Origin: Thermococcus profundus
GTDB taxonomy: Archaea > Methanobacteriota_B > Thermococci > Thermococcales > Thermococcaceae
Length of the DNA stretch: 64,000 nucleotides
Assembly: GCF_002214585.1 (NCBI RefSeq)
Contig: NZ_CP014862.1
Span: 1,674,001-1,738,000, forward strand
Direction: 5' to 3'
Part shown: in pieces, positions 37,149 to 40,998 of the stretch
Numbering within the stretch: position 1 is the first letter of the stretch
How the letters are laid out: every line of letters begins with the position of its first letter
The notes under the pieces: model-generated
Database searches by the model: none
Told to the model about the DNA's origin: nothing
What the model saw: only the letters and a program-made list of their open reading frames with translations
Made by a program: the position numbers and the translations under genes

Positions 37149-37922
37149 ATGCCCACCTGGAAGGACGGAAAGCTAGGACTGCCGGTTAAAGAGGCCGTCA
37201 AACTCTTTCCCGAGCTGGAGAAATACATTGACGAGCGCGGAAGGCTCGACTTCTCGAACAGGGAAGCCAGGATACTATACAACATGGCTATAGCGAAGGC
37301 CGTCTTTGGGTTGGATATAGAGTATCACCCAAAAGGCCTCGTCACAACCCCCGTTTCGCGCTACCTATTTCTCAAAACGTTCCTTCGCGGCGGTGAGAGA
37401 GTTCTCGAAATAGGAACAGGACACACGGCGATGATGGCCCTGATGGCGGAGAAGCTCTTCAACTGCGACGTTACCGCTACGGAGCTTGATGAAGAGTTCT
37501 TCGAGTATGCGAGGAGGAACATAGAGCGAAACGGTGCTAAGGTTAGGCTCATCAAGAGCAACGGCGGGATTATTAAAGATGTCGTGCCCGAGGGGGAGAG
37601 GTTTGATGTGATCTTTTCCGCTCCTCCCTACTATGAGACTCCAACGAAGGGTGTTTTAACGGAGAGGGAAGGTGTTGGCGGCGGGAAATACGGCGAGAGG
37701 TTTTCGGTAAGGATCATTGAAGAGGCACTCGATTACTTGAATCCAGAAGGTAAAGTTGCCCTTTTTCTTCCCGATAAGGAGCAACTGATAATGGCCGTAG
37801 CAGAAAAAGGTAAAGAGCTCGGCTACTCAGCCAGGGACGTTAAGTTCAAAGTCGGAACGAGGTGGAGGCACAGCCTGATTTTAAAAATCAAAAGCCGGTA
37901 TAACCGGATAATACCGACATGA
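37149..37922 (+). CDS. RlmF/METTL16-like RNA methyltransferase
   Basis: A 257-aa SAM-dependent methyltransferase. Motif I is VLEIGTGHTAMMAL, motif II around ATELDEEFFEYA, and the catalytic NPPY-like motif is FSAPPYYETPTKG, as in the DUF890/RlmF group that methylates adenine N6 in RNA; the target is unknown here. A TATA-like GCTTTTAAACGC lies at about 37121-37132, 20 nt before the ATG, so the mRNA may be leaderless; no ribosome site is visible. Confidence 0.8.
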   Translation: MPTWKDGKLGLPVKEAVKLFPELEKYIDERGRLDFSNREARILYNMAIAKAVFGLDIEYHPKGLVTTPVSRYLFLKTFLRGGERVLEIGTGHTAMMALMAEKLFNCDVTATELDEEFFEYARRNIERNGAKVRLIKSNGGIIKDVVPEGERFDVIFSAPPYYETPTKGVLTEREGVGGGKYGERFSVRIIEEALDYLNPEGKVALFLPDKEQLIMAVAEKGKELGYSARDVKFKVGTRWRHSLILKIKSRYNRIIPT

Positions 37923-37926
37923 AGTA

Positions 37927-37994
37927 CGAACACTAAAATGACCAAAAGTCTTTTATATTTTTGAAGCCCCAATTACGACTAGAAAGAGTGTTCG
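37927..37994 (+). promoter_or_regulatory. Promoter of the orphan ABC operon, flanked by an inverted repeat
   Basis: CGAACACT (37927-37934) and its exact reverse complement AGTGTTCG (37987-37994) lie on either side of a TATA box (CTTTTATATTTTTG, about 37949-37962). The start codon of the first gene is 22 nt after the second arm. Such an arrangement fits two operator half-sites around the promoter, but chance is not excluded for 8-bp arms. Confidence 0.45.
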
Positions 37995-38015
37995 ACATCC
38001 GCGGGTGAGAGCAGT

Positions 38016-38879
38016 ATGAAAACGAGGCTCTTCTTCGTTTTTATTTTGGTGATTTCAATCACATCGGGAACAGTTATGGGCTCCACAAACTTCGATCACC
38101 CTCAAATCGAGGGCAGGGTTACCGTGGTGGCCTTAAATCAGAACGGAAGTGAAGCTTATACCACAGTCCCATTCCTTACGAACTCCTCCGGGGGGAACGT
38201 TGTTTACCAGGGCTGGGTTGAGCTTGTAAGCCTTGAGGATCTGGGGAAAAACGTGAGGATAACAGTACGGTTTGAATTTAACGATTCCCCCTCATACCTC
38301 AAAAACCTGACGGAGCTGGGCCTCCTCACCGATAGGGCCCTTAACAGGACTTTTACCGTAAGCTTTCTTGTGGACAAGCAGAGCAACACCTTCGAAACGG
38401 AAGAGACGAGGGTTTTCTTCCCCTTCCTAATTCTTCAGCGGGACGGTGGAAAGCCCTTCCACAACTTCGAGTTCCTGAGGAGGGAAAAGCAGAACACCGT
38501 GAGGGCGGAACTTGCCAACGGCACCATCGCCACGATCTCCAATGCCGTGGAGCTCTACTCCACAAGAGCGTTCAAGTACGTCTTCTGCTCCGCCAGTATA
38601 GCCACGAAAAACGTTACGTGCGAGAACCCCATCGACCTCAGGTACGCCGAGGTGATGACAAAGTCCCCCTACGTAGTCGGAGCTGACCTTCTTTTCCCCT
38701 CTGATCCCTTCGGCGTCTACCCCGGACCGGTTATGCTGAGCTTTCAGCTGGCCCCTTCCGAGGACGCGCTCAAGGTTTTCGGGGAGAAAGGCGGTGACGA
38801 TCAGAGGCTCTACCTGATGATACCTGCACTGCTCGGCCTTTTAGTTTTGGGGGCGGTTTTGAGGAGGGGGAGGGAATGA
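38016..38879 (+). CDS. Secreted membrane-anchored protein of unknown function (ABC operon gene 1)
   Basis: A 287-aa protein with a signal peptide (1 to about 22), a beta-rich extracytoplasmic domain of about 230 residues containing two Cys (VFCSAS, VTCEN), and a C-terminal membrane segment ending in RRGRE. No family recognised. The ATG follows GGGTGAGAGCAGT and the gene overlaps the next by 4 nt. It heads a four-gene operon with two membrane proteins and an ABC ATPase, so it may be an accessory or cargo-handling part of an exporter. Confidence 0.75.
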   Translation: MKTRLFFVFILVISITSGTVMGSTNFDHPQIEGRVTVVALNQNGSEAYTTVPFLTNSSGGNVVYQGWVELVSLEDLGKNVRITVRFEFNDSPSYLKNLTELGLLTDRALNRTFTVSFLVDKQSNTFETEETRVFFPFLILQRDGGKPFHNFEFLRREKQNTVRAELANGTIATISNAVELYSTRAFKYVFCSASIATKNVTCENPIDLRYAEVMTKSPYVVGADLLFPSDPFGVYPGPVMLSFQLAPSEDALKVFGEKGGDDQRLYLMIPALLGLLVLGAVLRRGRE

Positions 38880-39664
38880 GGTACACGACCCTCGAGATCG
38901 GATCCAGCTGGGGGATCATACTCCTGATGATCCTGGCCCCTTCGATAGTGCTCTACGCCTCCTGGCATGCCTTCCTTGGGCTGGACGTGGGGAACCTCGG
39001 CGGTGCCGAGTTCATGAAAACCGTCCAGAAGAGCGAGGTAAGCGATACAGTTTCTAACTTTGAGAAGATTCTCGAGCCCTTCCTGACCGAAACCCTGAAG
39101 GCCCAGGTCAAGGCATTTGGAAACGGAATCAAAACGATCCTCCTGGGATCGTTCCTCACCCTCTCCACCCTGACATCGATAACGTTCTGCAGGGTGATTG
39201 CAGAGGGCTCGATAATAAACGAAATCGGGCTCCTCAGGAACAAAAGGAGGGTGTTTTTTGAAAGAACGCTCCCGCTGTTCCTCTACGCTGGCCTGGTGTC
39301 CTCACTCCTGAGCCTTGGAGTCTGGATTCTCCTGCCCTTTGCGGGGGTTGAGGCGACTCCAAAACTTTTGGCGTCTCTCTTCCTCTCGACGCTCATGGCT
39401 TCCCTCTGGGGCATATTCCTCACAGCCTTCATAGGAGCCACCCTGAAGGACAACCTCTACCCACTCCTCTCCTCCTTCCTAGTGGCCGGGATCTTCCTCT
39501 TCGCCAGTAACTACGGAGAGATCCTCTTCCCGTTCATCAGGACCTTCGAACTGGTTCTTTCGGGGGGTTACGGTATGAATCTCACCACCATGGTCGGCCT
39601 TTCGATGTTCGCGGTCTCCCCGCTGGCGGCCCTTAAAGCCTTCGAGCGGGGGGAGTACTATTGA
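38876..39664 (+). CDS. Multi-pass membrane protein, ABC-2-type permease-like (gene 2)
   Basis: A 262-aa protein with an N-terminal membrane segment (about 10-32), an extracytoplasmic loop of about 60 residues, then five hydrophobic segments. This topology is that of ABC-2 type export permeases and it is coupled to an ABC ATPase two genes on, but I see no conserved motif that proves membership. The overlap with the preceding gene (ATGA) indicates translational coupling. Confidence 0.75.
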   Translation: MRYTTLEIGSSWGIILLMILAPSIVLYASWHAFLGLDVGNLGGAEFMKTVQKSEVSDTVSNFEKILEPFLTETLKAQVKAFGNGIKTILLGSFLTLSTLTSITFCRVIAEGSIINEIGLLRNKRRVFFERTLPLFLYAGLVSSLLSLGVWILLPFAGVEATPKLLASLFLSTLMASLWGIFLTAFIGATLKDNLYPLLSSFLVAGIFLFASNYGEILFPFIRTFELVLSGGYGMNLTTMVGLSMFAVSPLAALKAFERGEYY

Positions 39665-40065
39665 GGCTCTCCACGGTGTTTGCCCTCTCGGCCATTGCGT
39701 TCATACTCACAACGTCGTTCATTCTTTTAGCCATCTCTCAGAGCGGATCGGAGGTTCGATTTACCTCCTTTGGAAACCCAAAGGAAGGGAGGTATTCCGT
39801 TTTCATGAAGGAGCTGATACTGCCCTTCGCAGGAGCCTACGATGTCCATGGTTCCAACACGACGATTCTGGCCTTCGAAGGAAGCTTCAACGGGACTTTC
39901 AAAACAAGGGGCAGGGGGATAGGAATCGTCTCCGTGCTGAAGGCCGGAAAAGAGGAGGTTGTGCGGATCGTCCCCCGGGTTGAGGTCTCTCCGCTTGGTT
40001 TTGCAGTGCTGGTGCTCGTCGGAGCGGGGTGGATGTATGCTGTTAGAGTGCTCAAACTTGAGTAA
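39661..40065 (+). CDS. Small two-segment membrane protein (gene 3)
   Basis: A 134-aa protein with a membrane segment at about 8-28, an extracytoplasmic domain of about 75 residues and a second segment near 110-130. TTG start at 39661 inside TTGA of the previous stop. No family recognised. Its end overlaps the ATPase gene by 29 nt in another frame. Presumably a subunit of the same complex. Confidence 0.7.
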   Translation: MRLSTVFALSAIAFILTTSFILLAISQSGSEVRFTSFGNPKEGRYSVFMKELILPFAGAYDVHGSNTTILAFEGSFNGTFKTRGRGIGIVSVLKAGKEEVVRIVPRVEVSPLGFAVLVLVGAGWMYAVRVLKLE

Positions 40066-40810
40066 ATCCTACGGCAACGTGAAGGCCCTCGACAAGGTCA
40101 GTTTTACACTGGAGGAGGGGATCTCCTTCATACTGGGACCGAACGGAAGCGGGAAGACGACGTTCATCAAGATAGTCAGCAACATCATCAAACCGGATTC
40201 CGGTGAGATAAGGATACTCGGGAGGGACTACCTCGACCTGTCACCAGGGGAGGTAGGCTTTGCCTTCGAGAAAACCGTTTTCCCGGGCTTTGTGAGGGTT
40301 GAGGACTACCTCCACACGGTTGGGGAGGTAAGGGGAACCGACAACTCCGATGAGATCATCTCGCTCTTCCAGCTCGAGAAGGTAAGAAAGAAGCGGTTTT
40401 CAGAGCTGTCCCAGGGATACAAGAGAAGGTTTCTCGTGGCGAGTGCCTTCGTCGGACTTCCGAAGGTAGTTTTCCTGGACGAGCCCTTCAGCAACGTGGA
40501 CATAACTGCCAGGAAGATAATGATGAAGGTATTTGTGGAACTTAGCCATAGGATTAACGTGATCGTTGTATCCCACGTCTTCACAAATGTTGAAAGGATG
40601 GACAGCCTCGTCCTCCTGAGAAACGGGAAGGTAATCGGAAACCTGCGGGGGAAAGATCTTAAGAGGATGAACGGGTTCAGAGCGAGCTTTGATGACGGGA
40701 GAGTTGTTGTCAACGACGTGGAGGCAATCAACGAGAAGATACTGAGTGGAAGAAGGCTCGTTTCAATAGAGCCCCTTTCCATCGAGTCCTGGCTGATGGA
40801 GAGGTTTTAA
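40037..40810 (+). CDS. ABC transporter ATPase (gene 4 of orphan operon)
   Basis: A 257-aa ATPase with Walker A (GPNGSGKTT), signature (LSQGYKRR) and Walker B (VVFLDEPFSNVD). The LSQGYKRR signature and short C-terminus are typical of ABC-2 exporter ATPases. Start at ATG 40037 (MLLECSNLSKSYG) preceded by GGGGTGG; the frame is open further upstream but only as a shadow of gene 3. It would power export or lipid/peptide handling by the two membrane proteins. Confidence 0.88.
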   Translation: MLLECSNLSKSYGNVKALDKVSFTLEEGISFILGPNGSGKTTFIKIVSNIIKPDSGEIRILGRDYLDLSPGEVGFAFEKTVFPGFVRVEDYLHTVGEVRGTDNSDEIISLFQLEKVRKKRFSELSQGYKRRFLVASAFVGLPKVVFLDEPFSNVDITARKIMMKVFVELSHRINVIVVSHVFTNVERMDSLVLLRNGKVIGNLRGKDLKRMNGFRASFDDGRVVVNDVEAINEKILSGRRLVSIEPLSIESWLMERF

Positions 40811-40998
40811 GCGTTGTTTTACCATATCCCCAGCTCGGGGAGGAGAAGTCCGCCATCGGGCCATTTGGATGACCGAATACAAAAGAATCCTGGCCATCTA
40901 AATGACCACAATAAAAAAGGACAGGGACTCAGACCGTGGGCGTCTCAGCACTCACGCCGGTCTCAGAGGAGGTGCTTTCTCCTCATCGTCCCTCAACT
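40811..40998. other. Convergent intergenic region with short repeat and hairpin
   Basis: 188 bp between converging genes. Two imperfect copies of GGCCATYTRRATGACC start at 40859 and 40892 (period 33 bp). A hairpin can form at 40932-40962 (GACC with GGTC, a GTG bulge, then GGCGT with ACGCC, loop 10 nt). No open reading frame with a ribosome site and no classic C/D box were found. It may be a 3' UTR structure or a small RNA. Confidence 0.4.

Follow-up and report, generated by a model that had tools for sequence, protein, structure and literature searches.

A candidate orphan ABC immunity cassette in Thermococcus profundus, with a putative secreted antagonist encoded upstream in its relatives

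Lactococcin 972-like products are small beta-sandwich bacteriocins that act on lipid II, a molecule that archaea are not known to have. Lantibiotic producers are protected from their own product by LanFEG/LanI immunity, in which an ABC-2-type transporter is combined with a surface-anchored protein. In Streptococcus pneumoniae, the lactococcin 972-like operon scbABC encodes streptococcin B; this secreted bacteriocin needs no dedicated transporter, immunity is presumed to be provided by scbB and scbC, and 27.5% of pneumococcal genomes carry scbBC only (PMC11796350). Among the Thermococcales, the VARTIG islands are variable surface-protein loci for which a role in conflict or self recognition has been proposed, and the phrase "ABC transporter" is absent from the main text of that study (PMC8416519). 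In the literature searched, antagonistic proteins of the Thermococcales were almost undocumented and no description of the cassette reported here was found; an earlier mention is possible.

The window analyzed here is a 64,000-nucleotide stretch of the 2.04-Mb genome of Thermococcus profundus (G000). Four open reading frames, P1 to P4, lie on its forward strand within positions 38016 to 40810, with successive overlaps of 4, 4, and 29 nt (Table 1). P4 scored 78.4 bits against Pfam ABC_tran (cut-off 25; E 1e-21), which identifies it as an ABC nucleotide-binding subunit. Its motifs were intact (Walker A GPNGSGKT, signature ELSQGYKRR, LDEPFSNVD, and VSH) and were invariant or nearly so across homologues (alignment A7). 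P1 contains two invariant cysteines together with NTF and DPFG-like motifs (alignment A4, 19 members), and it is predicted to be a secreted surface protein that is anchored C-terminally and serves as the outer immunity or recognition subunit. The P2 family showed four to six hydrophobic segments in hydropathy profiles, and P2 is assigned by context as an ABC-2-like permease. In P3, an outer domain lies between hydrophobic segments at each end, and the C-terminal end of the protein is conserved (RVLKFE-like, alignment A6). P1, P2, and P3 had no match in Pfam or NCBIfam at E ≤ 1, and none of the ABC-2 permease families in these collections was matched by the P2 of the window; ABC2_membrane was weakly matched by one of 17 P2 homologues (E 0.11). 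A sequence match of P1 to a cytochrome c stretch in the PDB (E 0.0025) was taken as chance. The initial annotation had described a coherent ABC operon, undescribed and with no local cargo, composed of a signal-peptide protein with a C-terminal anchor, an ABC-2-like membrane protein, a small two-segment protein, and an ABC ATPase. Its overlapping genes proved to be real, and hydropathy and profile searches agreed with the description of P1, P3, and P4; the second protein is indeed multi-spanning but lacks an ABC-2 family match. P1, P2, and P3 did not fall into any known transporter family, and a known family was recovered for P4 only.

Table 1. Coordinates of the operon, its promoter region, and the flanks of its insertion site in the window
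Feature	Positions	Strand	Description	Basis
Left flank, methyltransferase gene	37149..37922	+	In 59 of 61 genomes of the genus	
Inserted block (approximate)	37877..40845	+	Absent from relatives with an empty site	blastn
Left arm CGAACACT	37927..37934	.	Reported inverted repeat, chance level	
TATA-like box	37951..37962	+	Operon promoter	Sequence
Right arm AGTGTTCG	37987..37994	.	Reported inverted repeat, chance level	
P1	38016..38879	+	287 aa; N-terminal signal-like and C-terminal hydrophobic segments	Hydropathy
P2	38876..39664	+	262 aa; multi-spanning membrane protein	Hydropathy; alignment A5, 17 members
P3	39661..40065	+	134 aa, TTG start; small membrane protein	Alignment A6; hydropathy
P4	40037..40810	+	257 aa; ABC ATPase	Pfam ABC_tran; alignment A7
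Right flank, C/D-box sRNA sR43 (RF01128)	40927..40991	-	73.2 bits, gathering 45	Rfam

When 94 Thermococcaceae genomes were searched, P1 and P2 each had matches in 13, and the P1-P4 cassette was found in conserved order at 18 loci in 13 of the 94 genomes, including two Thermococcus metagenome assemblies (L043 and L044). Its distribution in the family is sporadic. The cassette was not found outside the Thermococcaceae, and a phylum-wide search with P1 returned family members only, one of them marginal. The 29-nt overlap between P3 and P4 recurs in related loci. A second cassette copy is present in the window genome (C1:76.4-79.4 kb), P2 is split by a frameshift at L139, and one further, fully decayed copy was found in G029. 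Plasmids and viruses were rejected as reservoirs: P1 was unmatched in the former, and in the latter P0 was unmatched and P4 matched only ATPases 21-37% identical.

The survey of gene order and of small adjacent genes in other genomes revealed a fifth gene, P0, which encodes approximately 175 aa and lies directly upstream of P1 at 10 of the 18 loci, at a distance of 11-45 nt or overlapping it. The relatives with this five-gene set are Thermococcus and Pyrococcus species. A TATA-like box lies upstream of P0 in them, and P0 is therefore the first gene of their operon. All ten P0 proteins have a signal-like segment at the N terminus, which is their sole hydrophobic segment (hydropathy). They form two subfamilies (L129, L131, L132, L134, L135, and L136; L122 to L125) that are probably homologous, judging from an hhalign probability of 74% and a cross-match at E 2e-6. 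P0 is conserved (dN/dS 0.12-0.16). No informative match to it was found in Pfam, NCBIfam, or the PDB, where a sequence match at E 0.042 was taken as chance; the ten proteins matched no relevant family of Pfam or NCBIfam at E ≤ 1, neither the lactococcin 972-like family nor any other bacteriocin family. P0 and P1 are not duplicates of each other. Against the PADLOC anti-phage defense profiles, P1 to P3 gave no match, P0 gave one (E 0.023), and P4 gave generic ATPase matches. Structure predictions reached a pLDDT of 34 for P1 and 43 for P0, from alignments of three and one rows, respectively, values too low for the models to be used.

In a profile search of the 94 genomes, all ten intact P0 genes adjoined a cassette and none stood alone. 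The remaining weak matches spanned only the signal-peptide part, except for a decayed P0 in G029 that lies inside a decayed five-gene cassette. P0 was absent from 8 of the 18 loci (the window, L127, L128, L130, L133, L137, L138, and L139); both cassettes of the window genome are without it. If P0 is ancestral, the P1-P4 tree places the P0-less loci in at least seven lineages. The nearest relatives of the window cassette in this tree are P0-bearing cassettes of genus g3, which we take to be Pyrococcus. A deletion scar was observed at L137, where P0 residues 1-15 are fused in frame to the last eight, the middle is deleted, and the remaining operon is intact. P1-P4 without P0 are under purifying selection, with dN/dS values of 0.09-0.28 between L127 and L128, both P0-less, and 0.13-0.39 between the P0-less L130 and L131. 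The window operon is best read as the remainder of a five-gene set after loss of P0. Its description as an orphan stands for the window genome but not for the family, where relatives carry the fifth gene directly upstream.

The cassette occupies a site of variable gene content. In G024, G041, and G028 the site is empty, and the methyltransferase gene and the sR43 flank are 7-22 nt apart. By blastn against L228 (G024), window positions 37876 and 40846 correspond to positions 2472 and 2494, 22 nt apart, and in L229 and L226 about 8 nt separate the counterparts of window positions 37883 and 40923. The last approximately ten codons of the methyltransferase gene extend into the inserted block. On the other side, sR43, located between the cassette and an rlmI-like gene, forms the right-hand border of the variable site. 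Other relatives carry an unrelated gene for an ATPase of approximately 440 aa, or other genes, at the same site, and no integrase gene was seen between the flanks. Repeated ATGACC-type half sites (GGCCATTTGGATGACC and GGCCATCTAAATGACC) are present at 40858-40910 of the window; they match the stretch that the same two flanking genes enclose in L228 and are similar to the start region of the approximately 440-aa ATPase gene that relatives carry at this site (L227, L230 to L232, and L234). They are possibly a remnant promoter or operator. In G004, also of genus g3, an intact P1 without remnants of P2-P4 (L126, 7616-8425) was found at the same chromosomal site beside the same methyltransferase.

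Our preferred reading, to which we give a probability of about 0.5, is that P0 is a Sec-secreted antagonistic protein, that P1-P4 are its ABC immunity module, and that the cassette in the window is an orphaned immunity locus. A weapon-and-immunity pair is suggested because P0 was repeatedly lost and the pump kept. P0 never occurs without its partner and the partner is maintained without P0, as expected if the one is toxic and the other confers immunity to it; a putative effector gene that is never separate from immunity genes, and immunity genes found alone, would place the set in the secreted toxin/immunity class. The reading also draws on the conservation of P0, on the sporadic distribution of the cassette, on the empty site in relatives, and on the comparable asymmetry of the streptococcin B operon. 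With the help of its signal peptide, P0 would leave the cell through Sec and act outside on competitors, probably related archaea. P1, held on the outer side of the cell membrane, may capture P0 or shield its target, and the P2/P3/P4 complex of ABC-2 type may spend ATP on driving P0 out of the membrane or on blocking access to the target. We infer an inhibitory role for P0 and a protective one for P1-P4. Antimicrobial export and immunity had both been listed as options in the initial annotation. Immunity is favored, and an exporter is less likely because P0 brings a Sec-type signal peptide of its own and because loci that lack P0 still retain the cassette. We propose more tentatively that P0 defines a new family of secreted antagonists of hyperthermophilic archaea, with P1-P4 as a new ABC immunity module. 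Several points argue against the toxin/immunity reading: P0 is larger than typical bacteriocins and is not hypervariable, it matches no bacteriocin family in Pfam or NCBIfam, its two subfamilies are only weakly alike, and the lone P1 of G004 is unexplained if P1 is a transporter partner only. If the reading is correct, producers, immune non-producers, and decayed loci coexist among the genomes of this family. These genomes would offer a defined secreted candidate gene, a probable immunity operon, and natural loss mutants, and the candidate could be assayed in genetically accessible hyperthermophiles.

The lactococcin 972-type operon is the nearest functional parallel, in logic and not by homology. 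As in the cassette, a secreted-protein gene comes first and is followed by membrane and ABC genes, and many genomes, a large minority, keep only the non-bacteriocin genes. In contrast, the lactococcin 972-like operon has three genes and is bacterial, whereas the P0-P4 set has five and is archaeal; no sequence similarity between the two systems was found. LanFEG/LanI shares with the cassette an ABC-2-type transporter plus a surface-anchored protein. However, the anchor of P1 is a C-terminal segment, there are no lanthipeptide genes, and P2 and P3 are unmatched. P4 reached 96.4 of the 309.75 bits required by NCBIfam TIGR03740, the ATPase model for lantibiotic immunity of this type, and does not classify as LanFEG. 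The VARTIG islands are, like the cassette, variable loci in Thermococcales, but they center on a large Ig-domain protein (PMC8416519), whereas no known domain was recognized in P0 or P1.

The main rival casts P0 as a protein of the cell surface or envelope, with P1-P4 as the dedicated machinery for its maturation, anchoring, or release; the P0-less loci would serve a surface protein encoded elsewhere. ABC-2 complexes with outer-facing partners do so elsewhere, and the strong conservation of P0 and the large outer domains in P1 and P3 would suit such a machine. It accounts for the exclusive linkage of P0 to P1-P4 but not for retention of the cassette without P0: P0-less cassettes are common and under purifying selection, and neighbor clustering showed no recurrent gene that replaces P0 as an alternative substrate beside them. 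We regard it as unlikely. Export of a small molecule, lipid, or sugar, with P0 as an optional accessory such as a binding or scavenging protein, appears less probable still. DrrA-like exporters are among the best family matches of P4, and lipid-exporting ABCA proteins are among its many PDB matches, but such matches are generic to ABC ATPases, and no recurrent biosynthetic or modifying gene was found beside the cassette by neighbor clustering. Least probable is a resistance or detoxification pump against antimicrobials of neighbors, with P0 as a secreted decoy or sensor, which would fit retention independent of P0 and the two P0-less cassettes of the window genome but leaves the absence of P0 without P1-P4 unexplained and has no recurrent regulator or sensor gene beside the cassette (neighbor clustering).

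An inverted repeat flanking the TATA box had also been reported. Both 8-bp arms, CGAACACT and AGTGTTCG, are present with 52 nt between them, and each occurs once in the window. Dinucleotide shuffling of the 93-bp gap produced an equivalent pair in 3.2% of shuffles, and 4.9% of the 93-bp stretches that make up the window contained one; at 12 related loci, both arms were absent from the sequence upstream of the operon. The repeat is therefore at chance level and unconserved, and an operator function is not supported.

Positions 12085-15409 of L138 hold a second cassette, alike in logic but unrelated in sequence, which encodes a 137-aa secreted protein, a 342-aa secreted and anchored protein, an ABC-2 permease, and an ATPase; the 342-aa protein has relatives in 55 of 94 genomes, some as tandem arrays. 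Near the cassette at L129 (11189-12735), a large secreted protein with no Pfam match is encoded together with a small membrane protein. Directly upstream of the P0-P4 cassette of G012 lies another ABC operon with unrecognized membrane proteins (L125, 4054-6563).
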